This document shows, one piece after another, positions 81 to 19,263 of a DNA stretch of 22,752 nucleotides (its first letter is position 1; each line of letters starts with the position of its first letter). The stretch covers positions 96,527 to 119,278 of the forward strand of contig KQ964465.1 in NCBI GenBank assembly GCA_001566745.1, in the 5' to 3' direction. Origin of the DNA: Conidiobolus coronatus NRRL 28638 (Eukaryota > Entomophthoromycota > Entomophthoromycetes > Entomophthorales > Conidiobolaceae). The notes under the pieces were generated by a model. The model saw only the letters and a program-made list of their open reading frames with translations. It did not search any database and was not told the origin of the DNA. Both the position numbers and the translations under genes were made by a program.

Positions 81-3000
81 TTAAATATCTTCAATGTCAC
101 TAATCTTGAACTGATTTAAACTATCGCCATCGCTTTCACTCTCGATATTCAAAAGTGAATTGTTAAGTACTACTAAACTAGTCTTTCTACTTCCATTTCC
201 TTGTTCGCTAGAGCTTTGTGGTTCAAATACTTTATCTCTATCTAATTCCCCTGAACTTTGTTGAGAATTTTTTTTGGCTGATAATTGAATGAAGAAGTTT
301 CTTATAATACTTTTACCAGCTTGTAAATTACGAAGTCTGATCCTTTCATTCTTTAAATGAGCTTGATCAGTTGATTGTCCCATTGGGAAATGAATGGCAG
401 GACAGTTGAAGAAATCTTCTAACCAAGGTACGGTAGGGATAGATCCACCCTCTCGAATTAACAGCGGTGATTTACCCCATTCCTATAGAAATAGAGATTA
501 ATATTAGCTATAAAATAATTTATAAATTTAGCTTACTTTAGTTATACAATCAGTTAGCAAGTCATAATATTCATTATCAGGATTTGCTATCCACCAATTC
601 GCTGTTTGGTGAATTTCAACATTAACCTTGTTATCGCTCTTTAACTCGTCAAATAATGAAGTTACATGATTAATAAATTGTTGAGTTATATCTTCTAATT
701 TTTGATCTGGTACAATTCTCATACTAATATCAGCTTTACAGAATGAACTGATTACTGATGAGTGATCAGAAGGGCCACTGGATACTATTCTATGTAAGGT
801 AAGTGTTGGGAATCGCCATTGTGATTGTAGCTTGGATTTTATGGCTTCGGATTGTTTAGAGCTAGTTAATTGGGTTAATGTTTATAATCAATTGGCTATA
901 TTAGTTGAAGCTTACTTAATAACGCTAGCTAAATTATTATAATAACTATCTTCTCTGTCTGATACAGGTCTAACATTATCATAAAATCCTAATAATCATA
1001 AATAAATATAAAAGTTAAATTAAATAAACCAAATTAATTACCTGGGATATTAACTTTATGATCTTCTGTAACTAATTTAGAAATTACTCTAGTTAAATCT
1101 ATCAAAGGTTCACCAATAACACCTCCATAAAATCCAGAATGAGCATCCGGTCTAGTATTTGATACTTGAATAGATGCGCTAATTTTACCCCTTAAGCCAT
1201 ATGTAACACATGGTATATCCTCTCCAATCCAATATGAGTTACTATTGACTTTAATTAATATTTATATTAATCGATTTAAATTAAATTACCTTAATAAAAT
1301 TACATCGGGCTTTCCAATCCAATTTTTATGCTTTCTAACAGCTTCATAAAATCCAATAGAACCTGATTCTTCCTCCCCTTCAATTACTAAAGTAATATCA
1401 ACATCCAAGTCCTTAGCTTGATAAAGTTCTGCTATAGCAAATATTGTAGCTAAAATAGGACCCTTATTATCGGTTACACCTCTTCCGTATAAGTAACCAT
1501 TGGCTCCTGTTACCTTGAAGGGGTTGTAATTCCATTGAGATTCATCTACTGGGATAACATCATAATGACCGTAAAATAGGACATGAGGAGTTTTTGATTC
1601 CAAGTTTGATTTACTAGCGTCTGAAGATGTGTTCAATTTACTAGATTGACTAGAAGTTTTAGGAGTATTATAAGCTGAGCTAAACCCAGGTTTTTTCTTA
1701 TTAGCTTTAAATTTAGCTAAAACTAGAGGGTTTCTAGACTCTGCACCATGAACTAATTTAGATTCAGCCCCAAGTGTTAAAAATAAATTTTTTAAAAATC
1801 TCGCTCCTCTCATACAATCTTGTTGAAATTTGGGGTTGCCAGAAATTGTTGGAATAGAAACAAATTTGTTTAATAGCTTAATAAATCCATCTAAACCACC
1901 AATTATTAATACATATTAAATAAAAATAGATAATTTTGTTACTGTTATTATTTTGTCCTATACAATCTATATCTTCACTAGCTATATAACTCAAAGATAT
2001 AGAATTTGGTCTAGTTGGTTGAACCCACCATAGCTGGAAAAATAAGTTAGTAAAACATTTATATAAATTAACTTTTGTTTACTTTTAACATATGATCAGA
2101 TCCACCTGATAATAGTAAACCTTGATCATTAACAGCTAACGCTAAAATCATACCATCGTGAGCTAATTTATTTTCAATCACGTCTAAATTAGCATTCCAT
2201 CTCTATTGCAAAAAGTTAATTTAAATTAATAATTTGCTATTATTTTATATTTACTTTAATAGCACCATCAGCACTAGCAGAAAATAACTCATCTCTATAC
2301 AAGCATAAACTCAATACATCATCCTATAGATCATAAATAAAAAATAAAACAAATATTTAGTTAATTTACCTTATGACCTATTAAAGTTCTAAATTTACTA
2401 AAAGTATCCAAATCAAATACTAATATATTTCCTCCTTGACTACCACAAATTAAATAATCTTCTCGAATTACAAGGGAGTAAATATTGTTGATTTTTTCAT
2501 TTTGTAAGGTTGAGAAGTGCATTAAATGTTTGGTTTGTGGACAAATTTTCCATATCTATCAAATTAGCTATTAGTATTGTTTAATGTTATATTGGAATTT
2601 TGGATTACTTTAATATCACCATCTCCAGATCCTAATTAATTAAATTAAATATTAATTACTGTCTTCTTAATATAGAGTAATAGATTTACCTGAAAATAAA
2701 TATTCATTTTCTGGATCCTCCGGAATGCTACCAATAGTCAATGAATAAATATACCCATAATGACAATGTGGATAAATCCATTCAGCTGGAATAACGAATT
2801 CCGGTATAACTTTAGAATTTTCAGGATCAACTTTATCCAATTGCATATTCTTTTCTAATTGAATTTCACCTCCTTTAATTTTATCCTTTAATTTAGACTT
2901 TGTACTCCCTTTGATATTGCATTGATTAAAGAAGTAATCAGCTACATCAAAGCCTTCAGATTCGTTGGTTTGCCCCTTTAACCTTGGATTAGGTACTAAT

Positions 3001-3717
3001 TTCTTTTTTATGTGAGGACTTTGAATTTGTAAATATTCTTCTAAGTTAAATTTCTAATATTTAAATTAATAAGTTAAATAGAGATAACCACATGGTATTG
3101 ATTACTTGAATACTAGTATTTTGACAACCAATATAAATAGTGTTATCTACGGGACTACTAACAATGGATAATATATCTCCTACATTGGTTCTAGTATGAA
3201 TTATATAAAGTGGCTGTAAGCTTCTTGTACACCAAACCTAAAACAGCGTTATAGTCTTGAATACTTATTTAAATAAGTTAAAGTTTAAACTTACTCTAAC
3301 TGTATCATCGCCTAAAATTAAAAGATTAGTAAATTTATATCGATAATGTTTAAATTTAACTTACTAGACCCAGAGTACAACTTTTGTCCATCTTTAGACA
3401 AAGTCAAGCATAAAACAGCACTAGTATGTCCCAATAAAGTTCCTAATTTTAATAAAGTTTTATTATCCCAAACCTAAACAATTTATTAATATCAATAAAA
3501 ATTAGTTTTGCGGGGAACTTACTTGAATAGCACCAGATTGACAACCAACAAAAATTCTATCATTTACTGTTGAACAACTTAATATAGAGTCTTTATCGTG
3601 GTAAAGAGTTTGGAATATATTAAGGGCGTCAGGGTTGTTGAATTGAATTGATTCAGAGCTTGAATTTAATAAGTCTAGAGTACTGTCATCTATATTTATA
3701 TTATTATCATTAGACAT
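81..3717 (-). CDS. DUG2: Dug2-like WD40 / M20 peptidase fusion (glutathione degradation)
   Basis: In yeast, Dug2 pairs with Dug3 to cleave the gamma-glutamyl bond of glutathione in the cytosol. Exons on the minus strand: 3717-3523, 3473-3365, 3311-3295, 3237-3106, 3053-2690, 2631-2609, 2555-2370, 2323-2255, 2202-2083, 2033-1943, 1890-1290, 1241-1042, 988-916, 861-537 and 482-81. All splice phases join, giving 968 aa (yeast Dug2 is about 880). Residues ~35-410 are WD40 repeats (SGAIQVWDN, SGSGDGDIKIWK, SADGAIKRW). Residues ~440-968 are an M20 metallopeptidase with GHYD (H544, D546), GRGVTDNKG (D576), EGEEESGS (Glu cluster 606-610), LSNSYWIGEDIPCVTYGLRG and the late metal His in DQAHLKNER (H877), so the visible metal and catalytic residues are all present. 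A Ser/Lys-rich insert (~500-536) precedes GHYD, and the C-terminal tail is low-complexity. The start is the first Met after the TATA-like site and leads directly into the WD domain. The peptidase part might be called a carboxypeptidase or carnosinase if seen alone; the WD40 fusion is what points to Dug2. Confidence 0.95.
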
Positions 3718-4604
3718 TGTTTTTATTATATTAAGTAAAGAAGAAAAAAGTTTAATTACGCATTTAATCAGTATATATAATTGATAGTGTATTTATACTA
3801 TAATAAATAAAATCTCAATATTAATTAAAGTCACTAGCTTTATTTTTTTGTGCTTTGTTTTTAATTAGTAATATTTAAGAATAATTTCGTGATCACTTGA
3901 TTTAAACCCTTTTTATACTCCAAAAAATTATTTGGACTTAAATTGTACATTATATCATTTTAATATTGGACGATTTAATAGGCCAATATATGTGAAAATT
4001 CTATATTTACTTTTTGTGATTAAATTTTGCTAATGTTCTTGCAGTTGTATATAGATTACAGTCTATAAAAAACCTTCTATTTAACAAGCATCTAGACTAC
4101 AAGCCTTTATCGTCAATAAACCATATTAGGAGAGTTTGAAAAATCTAAAAACTCATGGCTGATTTGAAGACGATTAAAGTGTAACCTCCTTGTGTATAGT
4201 TTCCAAAATAGAACTAAGTGGTCCCATTCTACCAAATTCGTGCTTTATAAGAATTATTATTAATTAGGTAACTTCAACCAGCTAATTAAAGAAAGTATTT
4301 TATTAGCGCAAAACAAATCTGATAAATTAATTGATTAGATATAGATTAATTTATTAAATTTATTAGGAATATTATGTTTTTAAATCAACTACATGGTCTT
4401 TGTTTTGATAACAACACACAATTTCACATTGCAGCTTAAGTTATATAAAAAGATTTCTATTTATAATTTGAAAATGTGAAATAAAAAGTAAAAACAAGAG
4501 CAACAATTACAAAATTCGATTAACGCAAAATGCAGCATATATGATTTATATATATTAATCCTATAACATGGAAAGAGTACAGTGATTCCCCTTTACTCTT
4601 TAGA
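3718..4604. other. intergenic: DUG2 promoter and VID28 3' flank, with a coding-like relic
   Basis: Both flanking genes read on the minus strand, so this 887-base stretch holds the DUG2 promoter (nearest 3718) and the VID28 3' end (nearest 4604). Most of it is AT-rich. A GC-elevated patch at 4174-4260 reads on the minus strand as KHEFGRMGPLSSILETIHKE and ends in TAA at 4174. A second short patch near 4372-4440 reads KLQCEIVCCYQNKDHVVDLK. They are separated by stops and join by no clear GT-AG pair. I do not recognise them; they may be gene remnants or chance. Confidence 0.4.
3771..3779 (-). promoter_or_regulatory. TATA-like element upstream of DUG2
   Basis: TATATATAC on the minus strand lies about 55-62 bases before the DUG2 start codon, within a leader that has no competing ATG in frame. 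The spacing suits a fungal TATA element, but AT-rich background weakens the call. Confidence 0.35.
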
Positions 4605-7183
4605 TTACAAGGAGGGGTCTGGGATCAGATCCATATCAAAGTTAGAAGTTGGCGACCGTTCTTCAGAATCCTCCCTAGTTACATACCGCCGAATTACTCG
4701 GTTTTCCTCAACATAGTTATCTTTACTCGATTCATAACGACTTTCAGATTGAAAATGCTGAAGTGCTGTTCTAGCACGGTCCTTGACATCTAGATTATCA
4801 TCATTAACGAGTCTTTTTAACGTGTCTTCAAATCCAAGCGCTCTTAAATCTTTGATTCTAATGAAACAACCTAGTTAATAGAATTAATACTGTAAATAAA
4901 CTTATTTTTTTATAAAAACTTACTTGTTTGGTTATCTTCTATCCATGTAAGATTAATAATACACCAAGCAGTAGCAACTCTAACTTGAGGGTGAGGATAG
5001 TTCATTAAATTGTGTATCTTATTTAAAAGTTCAGGTGATGCCATAATTAAGGATTTATGCTTGGTATTTCCAGTAGCAATATTTACAATTACATAGAGAG
5101 CCTGAATTATAGACTCTGTATGTGGAGTTTGCAGCTGTTGGAAAATAAGTTGCAGAAGCTCGCCTTCGCCAATTCCTTTAAATACTAAATCAATATCAGC
5201 CTCTTTTCCGCAACTTAAATTTCTTAAAAATGCAAGTGCCTGTTCTTGAATTCTAGGATTTGGATCTACAAGCAACCCCATGATCTTCTGCCATCCCAAT
5301 TGCTCCATTACCATAGATTTAATATGTGAATCTGCTTGGAAAAGAAGGTTTTTTAGTCCAAATACGGCATTATATCTCAATTCGGCGTTCTCTGAGTCAA
5401 TTAAACCAACCATACTAGTGATACCTCCACTTTCAAGGACTACTTTTTTAATTGGAGAAAAATCAAGAACTAAATTACAAAGAGTGGCTGAAGCAGAGAT
5501 TCTAACTTGGTCATCTGAGTCTTCGAGAAGTTTGAATAGTGGTGGAGTGACTCCAACTTCGACCAAACTTGTACGAAGAGTTTTTACAGATCTTGAAAGA
5601 CTTTTAGTACACTCACAAGCAGCAGCTCTAACACCAACTCTATAATGGGACATAGAACTTACAATGAAGGGAAGGGCTTTAGCTTCAATGACTTGCTTCC
5701 TACAGTCTTCACTTTGAGAGCAAATAGATGCAATCGCTAGCAAGCAGTTTTCTATAAGAGTATCTTGTAAAGATTCTTCGGGTGACATATCGCGCTCATC
5801 GCTCATGGTTGAAGCTGGGGTTTGTGAAATAATTTCTGATAGTTTCTTAATAGCGTCAGAGTCACAAGCAGCTTTTTGCATTATTTGTGATTTGTTAACA
5901 AGCCCAGCTATATAATTAATAAGATAAAAAACTCAAGGCTGCAATAAAGATAAAGTACCTAAAATTAATGGTGCTTGAATTTGAGGTGAACCTGTTGATT
6001 CTAAAAGTTTAACTAGTGTTGATAACACTACAGGTAATACGTTAAGATTTGCATCCATAATGGCGTTGACTTGGTTAAGATTTGTAATGCTTAATAAATA
6101 TTAGTGGTGATTCAAAATATAACCAATTAACTTTTTACCAATTGCAAGATAATAGCTGCATATTAACATTGGGAGATTTTACTAGCTCTGCCATATATTC
6201 AATTATTGGCTGGTTATCGTAGTCTAGTAAATATATAAGCATTTTTTGTCGATTTTGAGTTGGATTATTTCTTACTGAAATTTAAAATTGCATGACCTGC
6301 ACTCTCATTACCTAAGCACAAGGCAGATAAAGTTTCTAAAGCAGCTTCTTGAGCCTAAAAATAAAAAATATTGGTAGTTGATTAGCATAAATACTTTAAA
6401 AAAGTACCTTTTCAATGCCAGAGGTTAATAAGCCCATAATATCTGGTAAAACTCCAAAGTCTATGAGCTTATTCTGACGCTGTTGAGTATCTGCACATTT
6501 TCCAAGAATAAGTGCTGCCAATTGAGCCAAATTAATATTAGAAAGGTGGTCAGGATTAGTTTGTAAGTTAATATCGGGCGGTGCTAATAAGTAGAGCAAA
6601 CTATTTAAATGATTTTCCTAAATAATTAAAAAATAAGATATATTTTATAAAATAATTGAATTTCGCTACTTTGAAAATTTCGCCTCTTGGAGATTCTGGA
6701 CAAGAGAAGATAGATTTGAGAGCTCTTGCAGAAGCTTCAACTAAGGGATAAGGTAACATTTTCAAATTAATGCATTCTAACAAAATGCTAGTAGCCCCTG
6801 AATTTAGTAACTGACTAACAATATCTTTAGAACCTATTAAAATATTAAAATTAGTATAAAAAGATAAAACTATAGCTATACTAATTACCATATGCTAAAC
6901 TCCCTAAAACAACAGCTGTTTGAACTTGAATAGTAGGGTTAGAAGTATTAGAAGGTTTTAGAGTTAACAAAATTCTAGTTTAATAAAGGATTAGCTTTTA
7001 ATAAAATAAAAATAAATTAAAATACCTCTCAATAACGTTTAAGTTAGTATAAATAGCTTTGTTTGTTGGATTACCAATAATTTGGTTTTTTATAAGTCTT
7101 AAGGCTTTTAACTGGTCCTCGGGATTTTGACTCTCCAAGAGGTTTAAGTGGTAATTAGCTAACTCAATAGCTGAAGAAGGCAT
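4605..7183 (-). CDS. VID28: Vid28/Gid5 (ARMC8) armadillo-repeat subunit of the GID/CTLH ubiquitin ligase
   Basis: Vid28/Gid5 is the armadillo scaffold that links substrate receptors to the GID E3 ligase, known in yeast for degrading gluconeogenic enzymes. Exons on the minus strand: 7183-7026, 6974-6889, 6833-6670, 6617-6408, 6354-6312, 6274-6139, 6089-5959, 5907-4924 and 4870-4605, which join in frame to 725 aa (human ARMC8 is about 673). The N-terminus (IKNQIIGNPTNKA, then IQVQTAVVLGSLAYG) matches ARMC8 (MKNAVIGNNKQKA, ECAVVLGSLAMG). The large exon carries ARM repeats such as VRAAACECTKSLSRSVKTLR and SASATLCNLVLDFSPIKKVV, close to ARMC8 VRCLHSLSRSVQQLR and SSMLCNLLLEFSPSKEPI. The C-terminal DRARTALQHF matches the end of ARMC8 and is followed by a polar tail of about 45 residues. 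Exons 5/6 have an equally consistent alternative: 6354-6276 joined to 6223-6139, giving 720 aa. The start Met at 7183 is the first in frame, and the family resemblance begins about 30 residues later. Confidence 0.93.
6224..6311 (-). other. overlapping candidate introns in VID28
   Basis: Two GT-AG introns fit here, and they share base 6275. Intron A is 6311-6275 (37 bases, GTAATG...TTTCAG). Intron B is 6275-6224 (52 bases, GTAAGA...TTACTAG). Its donor G is the acceptor G of A, so the two cannot both be removed as separate units. Each choice keeps the same downstream frame, as does a single 88-base intron 6311-6224. Confidence 0.6.
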
Positions 7184-10943: not shown

Positions 10944-11761
10944 ATGACTAGTAACTCAGATAATATCCAATCTCCACCCCCTGCTTGCCCTATGCACGAA
11001 GCTAACAAGCCTAAAGAACCTACACCACCTCCAAGCTGCCCAATGCACAATAAAGATAACAAAGAAGCTCCTAAGCTATTCAATCTCGATAACAACATCC
11101 CCTTCCTCCCTAATGAACCTGTCAGTGACCAAAAGACTGAACTTTCCTTAGACAGAGATATTAGTAGCATTCCAAAGGCCAATTCCGAATCTAATTGGGA
11201 GTACCCAAGTCCCCAGCAATTCTATAACGCCTTAAAGAGAAAGGGCTGGGAAACCCCTGAAGATAAGATCGACGTTATGGTTGATATCCACAACTTTTTA
11301 AATGAAGGCGCTTGGGAAGAAGTTATGAAGTGGGAGAGACTCCACAAATGGTAAGCTTGATTATATATAAATATAACCATTATTAATCAACTCTGTAGTG
11401 ATTGTGATGATCCCAAATTACTCAGATTCAGAGGAAGACCTCAAGAACTCAGTCCCAAAGCCTGGTGGTCTCACAAAATATTAGGGTAATATATATACTA
11501 TATGTAATAAAAATAAGACTTATCGTTTTTTATAGAGCCCCTAGACCTTTTGATCGTCACGACTGGACAGTAGACCGCTGTGGAAAAGAAGTTCGCTATA
11601 TTATCGACTATTACGGTGGCCCCGATGAAGATGGTAGCCCCACTTTCAACTTAGACGTACGCCCAGCCATCGATACTTTTGAAAGTGCCAAGGATCGTTT
11701 TACAGTTGGTATGCAAAGCTTCTTCAGTAGATTCACAGGAGAAAAGAAGGATCAAAACTAA
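10944..11761 (+). CDS. CYC3: holocytochrome c-type synthase (cytochrome c heme lyase)
   Basis: This mitochondrial intermembrane-space enzyme attaches heme covalently to the CXXCH motif of apocytochrome c. Exons 10944-11350, 11399-11485 and 11536-11761 join to 239 aa, a usual family length. The N-terminal region has two CPM heme-regulatory motifs (C15, C32). Then come [60 protein letters not shown], the hallmark [18 protein letters not shown] (H173 is the expected heme-ligating His) and [20 protein letters not shown]. The frame is also open from an ATG at 10914 (10 extra residues); I prefer 10944 because family members carry only a short leader before the first CPM. The YPSPQQ and FLNEG features resemble yeast Cyc3 more than Cyt2, but a single enzyme serving both cytochromes c and c1 is possible. 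It is followed by 963 bases before the kinesin gene on the same strand. Confidence 0.95.
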
Positions 11762-12724: not shown

Positions 12725-15700
12725 ATGTCTGAAGAGTCTACAAGTGTTAGGTAAGTGCATAATCTATCAACAGCTAAAAGCTTATATTCATTAATTATTT
12801 AGGGTAGCTTTAAGGGTTCGTCCTATAACAGCTAAGGAGAAATTAGAGCACTGTTCTGATTGTATTACTTATGTACCAGGAACTACCCAAATGGTACTTG
12901 GGTCAGATAAAGCTTTCACCTTTGACTATATTTTCGATGATAATATTCACCAGGAGGATGTTTATAAAAACTGTGTTGCAAGCTTAATGGACCAGTTTTT
13001 GATGGGGTAAAATAATTTTTAAATGCATCAGATGAATATAATATTAACTCTTTTATTTAGTTTTAATGCTACAGTATTCGCCTATGGGTAAATATTATTT
13101 GATTTTTAATTATTATATTAGTTACTAATTATGTTAATCTATTAATTTTAATCTAATTTAGTCAAGTAAGTTGAAGCATATAATTTTGATATTTAGTTTA
13201 AATTGAATACTAATTTGTAAATTATAATAGACTGGAAGTGGTAAAACTTATAGTATGGGTACTAGTATGGACCAGTCTAAAGACCCTAACCAACAAGGTA
13301 ATTTGACTAATCTTAAATAGTTAGCAGTTTAGCTAAAACTTATTAGGTATCGTCCCAAGAGCCATAAATCACCTATTCGAAGAAATCTCTATAAGAAAGT
13401 CAAAATCAAAGTATTATCAGTCTGAGGTGTCCGTTTCATTTTTAGAACTTTATAATGAAGATTTACTCGACTTATTAAATCCGCAGCCCAGGAATAATAA
13501 CTCAAAAAATAAGGATAGCTTAGGACCTCAAATTAGAGAAGATCCACAAGGCGGTATTTATTGGACCGGGGTCAAAGAAATCGCCGCCTCAAATCCTGAT
13601 GAGCTTATGAATTATATGTATCAAGGTTTAATTTGTAGAAGTACTGCTAGTACTGATATGAATTTGGTTTCATCGAGATCGCATGCTATCTTTTCCGTTA
13701 CTTTAAAGCAACAGTTAGAAGCTAGTTGGCTTGAGAATGGAGTTATAGAAGAATCTAGCTCTGATGATCCAGATGCCCCACCTCCAGCACTTCAAAATAT
13801 TGTTTCAAAGTTCCATTTCGTAGATTTAGCAGGTAGTGAAAGGCTAAAGAAGACAAACGCTGTTGGGGGTAGAGCCAAAGAAGGTATATCCATTAACGCT
13901 GGGCTACTAGCCTTAGGAAACGTAATCAGTGCTCTTGGAGATGCTGCATTAAAAGGATCCCATGTACCATACAGAAATTCCAAATTAACCAGACTTTTGC
14001 AAGATTCTCTTGGTGGAAATAGCAAAACACTTATGCTTGCTTGTATCTCACCCTCAGATACAAATTTCTTAGAAACTCTTAGTACTCTAAAATATGCTAA
14101 TCGCGCTAGAAACATCAAAAATAGAGTTCAAGTTAATGTTGGTGAAGGTGATCCAAAGGAAGAAATTCAAAGATTGAGAGCTGAACTTGCAAGAGTTAAG
14201 CTACAGCTAGTTAATATGAATCCTCCTAAAGCTCCCACTCCAGATAGTCACCAAGTTTCTTACCAACTCAAGCAAAAGGATCAGTTAATCAAGCAGCTTC
14301 AGAGTAAAATCAGAGCTATGTCTTCAAATGAATTAGATGCAACCTCTTCAAATGGAAGCGGTATTGATATGGTATCTCAATTAGAACAAAGCGAAGTTAA
14401 ATGCTCTGACTTGAAGGCTAAATTGGATCAAGGGTTGGAAATTATTAATGATTCAGTATTTAAGCTGAATAGAATTAAAGATCACCTAAAGGCTTTGGAT
14501 ATTGATCCTAGCCACCCTGAAGCACAATCATTAGAGAATGATGTAGACACTTTGTCTACATCTTTACTCAACACTGTTGAATTATTCAACAATACACTAA
14601 ATACTCACCAAGAACCTCTATCACCTGACGATACAGATGCTTCATCACCATCGATTTCTATAACCCCTGTAGATTCTATCAAATTATCTAAAACCATCTC
14701 AGATCCCGTATCCCAAACAAAAAATCCAAGATCAATCGCTTGGTCTGCTTTACCTGCATCAATGACATCACCAACCAGCAAGACATCTGGAAAAGAACCA
14801 AGTCAAAGCAAGCAAATCAGAGACCTTACTCTTGCTCTTAAGAAGGCACTTGCTGAGCGTGATGCAGCAGTTAAAAAAGCTGAAAACGCTTCTCATACGC
14901 TCCGCACAAAGGCCAGTTCTCCCGCTCTCAACGGATCAGTACCTAGAAAATCATCGGTTACACCACCAAATGTACCACCTGCAGGTATGGCTAAATTGAA
15001 AAAAGAATTGGAAATGGCACAGCGTCAAATTCAACAGCAAAAGCAAGAGATCATGGGCTTGAAAAAGGAAAATACCAGACAGTTAAGAACTCCTAGTAGA
15101 AATACGGTAATTATACCTTTTAGATCCATAGTATCTTTTATTAATTTATTTTTATAGTCGAGACCAGTTTCTAGAAACAAGAACTTATCTGAATTCCCAG
15201 ATTACAACAGCCAGCAATCTCCAAATGGATTACGAGCAAGTTTCAAGAAGCGTCAAGTTGAAGATGAAATTAATTACTTCTTGATGGGAAGAAAGACTAG
15301 AATTACTTTACATGAGTTAATCACAAAATTAGAACCTCAAATGGAAGAGTTGGAGGAACTACTCTCAGAAAGAGACCGTATTCAAACTTTAGTTGATCAG
15401 CACAGAGAGACACGATTAAATAATATGAACGATGGTATGGAATCTTTCATGCAAGTAGAGACTGAAGTTGAATTGGAAAGTTTGATTGAGCAGCTTAGGT
15501 TTGTAGATGATCAATTAGAACTTTTAGAAGCTGAAGTCAGTTACACTGAAGCTAAAATCAGAGCTTTAGAACGCAAAGCTGAAACTGCACTTAGACCAGA
15601 GTCTAGCTCTCAAACTGATGACTTATACGGTGAAAACCACTACAAATATGCATTAAAGTTACTTTCCGAGTTAGATGATACTGAAACTCAAGGTATGCTC

Positions 15701-16069
15701 GAACTTTTACTCAAAGACGTTGTAACACTTCAAATGGATACTTGGACTTATGAAATGACTATAAAAGGCTTAGACCAACAAAACAAGGAACTACAAAATA
15801 CTCTTGGAGTTCTAAAACAAGCAGCTGCTACAATGGCTATGGATTATGAAAACCGAATCCTAGCCCTTGAAACTGGAGTTGACGTTGCTGAATTAACTCA
15901 ACTCGCTCAAGAAGAATATATCCCAACCCCTGAAGAATTAAATAATGAATTGGGAGGTGAGAATGAAAATAACATGAATAATGAGGTTAATTTAGAAGAT
16001 TTTGTAGATAATTTCCAAAGCTTTCACCTATCAAAAAATGAATTAATAGTTGAAAACGATCAATTTTAA
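12725..16069 (+). CDS. kinesin-4 family motor protein (KIF4-like)
   Basis: An N-terminal plus-end-directed microtubule motor; kinesin-4 proteins control microtubule growth and spindle or cargo organisation. Exons 12725-12750, 12803-13006, 13061-13087, 13162-13165, 13231-13297, 13347-15106 and 15158-16069 give 999 aa. The motor domain spans residues ~8-373: RVALRVRPI, SDKAFTFDYIF, NATVFAYG, P-loop GQTGSGKT (86-93), switch I SSRSHAIF (218-225), switch II DLAGSER (269-275), KLTRLLQDSLGGNSKTLM and LKYANRARNIKNRVQVN. KVSYLEIYNE/DLAGSERQKKTKAEGDR-type signatures place it nearest KIF4. Coiled-coil segments follow at ~375-440, ~595-690 and ~735-930, with a Ser/Thr/Pro-rich linker near 530-590. About 15 extra residues sit between switch I and II. 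The C-terminal Cys-rich domain of animal KIF4 is absent, and the protein ends in an acidic Asn/Glu-rich tail. The 26-base first exon supplies MSEESTSV; the kinesin core begins right after the first splice. Confidence 0.95.
13162..13165 (+). other. 4-base microexon (TCAA) in the kinesin P-loop
   Basis: The upstream exon ends at 13087 with GG (phase 2) and the downstream exon starts at 13231 with ACTGGAAGTGGT. Only T+CAA, flanked by TTTAG and GTAAGT, restores Gly-Gln-Thr-Gly-Ser-Gly-Lys-Thr and the reading frame. Skipping it shifts the frame inside the nucleotide-binding loop. Confidence 0.8.
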
Positions 16070-18714: not shown

Positions 18715-19263
18715 TTACTTTTGCCTAGTGTGAATGCGAGTATGTTGATTTAAGTTGTCACTGCGACTGAAACGCTTTCTACAGTGAGGGAAAGGGCACT
18801 CATAAGGCTTTTCATTGCTATGAAGAGTTCTCAAGTGTCTTTTTAAATGCTCAGCACGCCTGAATTTGCGGTCACACTCAGGAAGAGGGCAAGGATATGG
18901 GCGGTGGTCAGTAACTACGTTGCTGGGAACAATAGGGGGAGTGGGAAGAAATTCAGTTGGTGATATGCCAGTAAGATCAGAGGGCATATCTCCTGTAATA
19001 TAAGGGAAATACTCGCTTGCAAGGTCGTCAGGAAATAGATAAGATGACATATATGGAGTAGGAGGAGATAATAAAGGAAAGTGACCATGAACTGGTGATG
19101 AAGAGAGACACTCAGAAGGACTAGAACAGTTTTGTCCTTGTGTGGACATAGTGAGAGTATAAGTTGGAGATGGAGTAGATACATCCATGCTAGTGTTTTC
19201 AAGGGTAGGAGATAATTCCATAGGGAATTGTTCAATCCAAGAGAAAGAGCCATAAGATTCCAT
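18715..19263 (-). CDS. Msn2/4-type two-finger C2H2 transcription factor
   Basis: An uninterrupted 182-aa gene. Two C-terminal C2H2 fingers: finger 1 with C125, C130, H143, H148 (C-x4-C-x12-H-x4-H) and finger 2 with C156, C161, H174, H178. The recognition helices RAEHLKR and RSDNLNQ have the same base-contact residues (R/H/R and R/N/Q) as yeast Msn2/Msn4, which bind the stress element AGGGG. The HSNEKPYEC linker is also Msn2-like, so nuclear STRE-type binding is a fair inference. Residues 1-120 are Ser/Thr/Pro-rich with nine S/T-P sites (S18, T30, S32, S49, S56, S66, T69, S101, T108), suggesting control by proline-directed kinases. An acidic-hydrophobic patch ([20 protein letters not shown]) could be an activation region. 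It is far shorter than Msn2 (about 700 aa). The first Met lies 144 bases after a TATA box. Other fungal two-finger factors with the same helices cannot be excluded. Confidence 0.85.

Follow-up and report, generated by a model that had tools for sequence, protein, structure and literature searches.

A very probable four-base coding exon in the P-loop of a kinesin-4-like gene of Conidiobolus coronatus

The kinesin-4-like gene and its surroundings

The stretch of DNA analysed here (the window; 22,752 nucleotides of contig KQ964465.1 of Conidiobolus coronatus NRRL 28638) carries a kinesin-4-like gene, together with genes for a protein with WD40-like and M20-peptidase-like parts (which we take to resemble fungal Dug2), an Armadillo/HEAT-repeat protein, a cytochrome c/c1 heme lyase and a C2H2 zinc-finger protein (Table 1); Rfam gave no match within the window. 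The assembly containing the window amounts to 17.5 Mb in 186 contigs. Self-trained gene finding was dropped, as it grossly over-predicted and placed false genes opposite real ones.

Table 1. Modelled features of the window (position 1 is its first base)
Feature	Coordinates	Strand	Remarks
Gene with WD40-like and M20-peptidase-like parts	81-3717	-	15 exons; 14 introns of 46-58 bases
Armadillo/HEAT-repeat gene	about 4609-7183	-	8 modelled introns of 49-55 bases; stop end approximate
Cytochrome c/c1 heme lyase gene	10944-11761		two introns
Kinesin-4-like gene	12725-16069	+	7 coding exons, stop included; 999 aa
Kinesin exon 1	12725-12750	+
Kinesin exon 2	12803-13006	+
Kinesin exon 3	13061-13087	+	27 bases, between two phase-2 introns; codes for (G)FNATVFAYG, ahead of the P-loop
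Upstream flanking intron	13088-13161	+	74 bases; GTAAAT...TTTAG
Kinesin exon 4 (very probable)	13162-13165	+	TCAA, 4 bases: third base of the Gly codon and Gln (CAA) of GQTGSGKT; from join enumeration, shuffles and decoder
Downstream flanking intron	13166-13230	+	65 bases; GTAAGT...AATAG
Kinesin exon 5	13231-13297	+	67 bases; starts ACT GGA AGT GGT AAA ACT (TGSGKT, remaining P-loop)
Kinesin exon 6	13347-15106	+
Kinesin exon 7	15158-16069	+	includes stop
C2H2 zinc-finger gene	18715-19263	-	182 aa; one open frame

The seven-exon join of the kinesin gene yields an open frame that contains the P-loop GQTGSGKT, and the first 373 residues of the model (microexon included) matched the Pfam kinesin motor PF00225 with 344.8 bits over profile positions 1-327 of 327, i.e. 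a full-length motor domain. The top solved chains were the kinesin-like 7x4n, followed by KIF4 and KIF7, and in the two alignments shown (7x4n and KIF4 3zfc) the stretch AYGQTGSGKT is identical. Judged by similarity ranking, kinesin-4 proteins (KIF4/KIF7/KIF21) are the likely nearest relatives. Among the best 120 of 7985 matches, the named fungal proteins include KIF21A/B-like ones and ‘kinesin family member 4/21/27’; the best named relatives come from the Entomophthorales, namely from Neoconidiobolus thromboides, Massospora cicadina and Entomophthora muscae, which share 38-41% identity with the query and are followed mostly by Mucoromycota, and a partial protein from JGI sequence (P0001) is 98% identical to the window kinesin.

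Outside the P-loop region, the 28 other introns modelled in four genes of the window are GT-AG introns of 46-58 bases (mean 51.8, SD 2.7), of which 24 start with GTAA and 26 end with TAG. The two introns that flank TCAA exceed all of these in length, as the first-pass annotation had observed, whereas the range of 37-58 bases that it gave for the other 28 was too wide. In the downstream flanking intron, a TACTAAT located approximately 18 bases before the end is, by resemblance, a likely branch site.

Four bases between the P-loop exons

The exon at 13061-13087 ends in ...TAT GG (phase 2) and the one at 13231 opens with the complete codon ACT (phase 0), so that four bases of the form N-CA-R are missing between them. 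It had been claimed that the gap is filled by TCAA at 13162-13165, which sits between TTTAG and GTAAGT, and the coordinates given for these bases and for both exon ends proved to be right. We enumerated the one- and two-intron joins within 13061-13297 (AG acceptors; GT or GC donors lying 5 bases or more inside the interval; introns of at least 25 bases), and found that FAYGQTGSGKT is restored by only one canonical join, via TCAA; single-intron joins and other tiny exons that would restore the P-loop were sought in the same enumeration and none was found. Within this interval, the claim that TCAA is the sole supplier of the missing Gln and of the third base of the Gly codon is thus upheld. Three further joins keep GSGKT open at the cost of 4-8 residues each, their donors being GC or GT within the coding exon.

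Both flanks of the four bases bear canonical splice sites. To assess how often such an arrangement arises by chance, we subjected the interior of 133 bases to dinucleotide shuffling 20,000 times (slashes mark exon boundaries). The pattern AG/NCAR/GT with both introns of at least 37 bases appeared in 17 of the 20,000 shuffles, YAG/NCAR/GTA in 6, [CT]AG/NCAR/GTRNGT in 1 and the full consensus TTTAG/NCAR/GTAAGT in none; in the window (both strands considered) this full motif occurs a single time, at 13162-13165. Being internal in the model, the four-base exon falls within the microexon class (internal exons of at most 27 bases, as defined in PMC8378409). The preceding exon 13061-13087, at only 27 bases, is by itself a microexon, so that the gene model holds two microexons in tandem.

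A decoder that makes no protein comparison (a codon and splice-site model trained on three other hand-checked genes of the window, with background base counts that include the kinesin region) selected exactly the TCAA exon, in agreement with the protein motif. The margin was 7.55 nats over the best path without the exon under a hand-set length prior, and 12.09 nats over the best exon-less path with flat length. When 196,004 bases of this genome were decoded, the prediction comprised 37 genes and 145 internal exons, of which five are 12 bases or shorter, and 175 introns (median 51 bases, quartiles 49 and 55), 20 of which measure at least 65 bases and are probably in part decoder errors. The predicted exons of 2, 2 and 8 bases look false (one flank or both are poor or too long in each), and since the decoder produces such exons its choice alone is insufficient, which lowered our confidence slightly.

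The two remaining short exons of the decoder measure 12 bases each. One is located in the C23 sequence analysed, where a kinesin-like region has decayed through stops and frameshifts (L015, G000:C23:146000-155000, minus strand) and has beside it fragments that, by reading, we take to resemble isoleucyl-tRNA synthetase and integrase; a P-loop was searched for in this decayed copy and none was found. The other (L021, G000:C47:20001-30000, positions 4390-4401, minus strand) is flanked by predicted introns measuring 48 and 50 bases and could be genuine. A 30-base exon pattern had no match among the genome contigs searched, and the matches of a 14-base pattern in viral contigs (at least 120 stretches, at least 80 loci) were taken as chance.

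Annotated relatives and rival explanations

In three other kinesin loci of the genome GQTGSGKT is contiguous in the DNA, and there is consequently no intron at that site there. In view of these loci, the first-pass description of the window kinesin as an essential motor would be no more than a supposition. The protein searches provided 125 relatives (two lists, each the best 120 of 7985), and gaps were counted in the 123 that start before approximately residue 70 of the window kinesin (P0001 and P0004 were left out). Among the matches listed, seven of the 123 (two from Funneliformis and one each from Gigaspora, Endogone, Rhizophagus, Helicostylum and Ambispora) lack exactly nine residues, those corresponding to the 27-base exon 13061-13087, and in two more the gap begins exactly past AYG (Massospora P0003, without QTGSGKTYS; Entrophospora P0100, without QTGS), so that in nine of 123 a gap coincides precisely with the two junctions. 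Elsewhere in the motor, gaps of at least three residues occur in one or two proteins each (outside the length-variable 154-167 and 237-259), and one such gap of P0047 extends up to the first Gly junction. As these gaps are found in gene models or true isoforms of distant fungi, we infer that introns at both Gly codons are old; the exon of 27 bases and the phase-2 intron that follows AYG would both be of long standing.

If the four-base exon is ignored, the same donor of the window gene allows three false in-frame joins (AYG/GKTYS, AYG/MGTS and AYG/MDQSK), the first two of which are the gaps of P0100 and P0003, respectively. The gap of P0003, together with the late start of the Entomophthora muscae model P0004 (right past the P-loop, at MGTS), would fit a four-base exon common to these fungi, as far as annotated proteins can indicate. 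Nevertheless, P0003 has another doubtful stretch near the first intron, and its gap could therefore reflect a common error of annotation or assembly; P0035, from the same Entrophospora species as P0100 and identical to it over the stretch shown, is yet intact, which makes P0100 weak support for the exon, and the gap of P0100 may come simply from an acceptor lying 12 bases further downstream. The P-loop of Neoconidiobolus thromboides is intact and neutral with respect to its introns, and the C-terminal region of P0002, used as a query, returned nothing except itself.

The first-pass annotation had further stated that skipping the exon destroys the frame, and the direct 13087-13231 join indeed reads AYGLEVV... 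and runs into a stop 28 codons past AYG; retention of the upstream intron leads to an immediate stop and that of the downstream one to a stop after three codons (QVS). These early stops would be in line with a regulated switch, in which the inclusion of a real four-base exon would be set by stage or condition, and its skipping would cause a frameshift, decay and a motor turned off. The unusual length of the flanking introns points in the same direction, as does a fungal precedent in the 20-nt exon of Trichoderma Xlr2 (PMC11121469). However, the skipping of constitutive microexons is just as harmful, and the splice sites are not weak (donors GTAAAT and GTAAGT, acceptors TTTAG and AATAG) but ordinary, their likeness to the other introns of the window (GTAA, TAG) being what constitutive splicing would predict. 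We regard a switch as very unlikely; it has no support beyond the null outcome of every mis-splice examined.

Less probable again is an assembly or sequencing error, by which a single 143-base intron would precede a true downstream exon NCARACTGG that lost four bases, the presence of TCAA being coincidental. The sequence rests on one assembly, and relatives appear to have Gln and Thr in one exon (presumably the ancestral form), both of which are compatible with such an error; yet it would require the loss of four bases in addition to a chance perfect microexon (see the shuffles above) and an intron far outside the 46-58 bases of the 28 others, in a gene the remainder of which is open. Least probable of all, to the point of being barely credible, is a decaying kinesin copy in which the P-loop Gln and the frame were lost: the decayed stretch on C23 offers a parallel for it within the genome, but the 999-aa frame is otherwise open, its introns are canonical, and the JGI-derived P0001 retains near-identity to it. 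Taken together, we consider it very probable that 13162-13165 is a real, constitutively included four-base coding exon of the kinesin-4-like gene (a judgement that covers the origin and mechanism proposed below), and its inclusion is, on the evidence of the DNA, probably constitutive.

Proposed origin and known microexons

We propose that the four-base exon arose in two steps: an ancestral P-loop exon would have started with NCARACN beside an ancient phase-2 intron, and a later intron gain at CAA/ACT would have cut off its first four bases. Each of the short AT-rich introns would be recognised by intron definition, the mode proposed for the pairing of short introns (PMC8624252). A microexon is considered to lack the room for simultaneous complexes on both flanking introns (PMC8831610), and in worm microexons the need for PRP-40 was lost once a flanking intron was shortened (PMC8378409). 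With four bases being too few for the splicing complexes of both introns together, the two introns would be removed stepwise, one after the other. As inaccurate splicing gives null messages, we argue that the structure would be a burden, retained because the motif is under selection, and not a demonstrated switch. A wider version, which we consider unlikely, holds that the 27-base and 4-base tandem is conserved in Entomophthorales kinesin-4 genes, that it came from an intron gain four bases off an ancient intron, and that its difficult splicing sets the amount of active motor; if its conservation were true, some annotated Entomophthorales kinesin-4 models would be without a P-loop purely through annotation.

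Exons this small are rare and mostly escape gene-finding programs, but as a type of gene structure they are known already. One of the closest published cases is fungal: the 1-nt exon of Fusarium CYP621A, with RNA-read support and 20 orthologues (PMC12940212), is likewise a tiny exon in a conserved motif that was exposed by incompatible exon phases, gene models are likewise wrong at its site, and the combined intron stretch measures 139 bases in F. graminearum (median intron 56) against 143 here. It differs in being a single base of a P450 gene, as compared with four bases of a kinesin gene, and its authors suggest a base loss followed by cryptic-exon rescue, whereas an intron gain beside an old intron is proposed here. 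The 1-nt exons of plant APC11 and VPS55 (PMC4674806, PMC8831610) are also frame-breaking and absent from annotations, and the VPS55 donor GTRAGT is of the type found downstream of TCAA; unlike the TCAA exon, they are RNA-verified and conserved across wide distances. In Trichoderma Xlr2 (PMC11121469) the fungal microexon also has a length that is not a multiple of three and was missed by annotation, but it is five times longer and its glucose dependence was demonstrated. In the P450 genes of Phanerochaete chrysosporium (PMC1184071), small exons likewise occur and introns are frequent, measuring 45-55 bases, although the exons belong to a P450 family and the shortest one reported measures 6 bases. 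In the open-licence literature, judged by titles and the beginnings of abstracts, we found no report of a P-loop microexon or of this kinesin exon.

To the short list of ultra-small fungal exons, the present case would add one of four bases that lies in a motor protein's catalytic loop and comes from an early-diverging fungal lineage, and it provides a concrete model for their birth, namely intron gain a few bases off an old intron. It may also be a reason why some annotated kinesins of related fungi seem to be without part of the ATP-binding region, and we consider that in fungi with short introns gene models need to be checked for gaps of this P-loop type before a loss of function is claimed.
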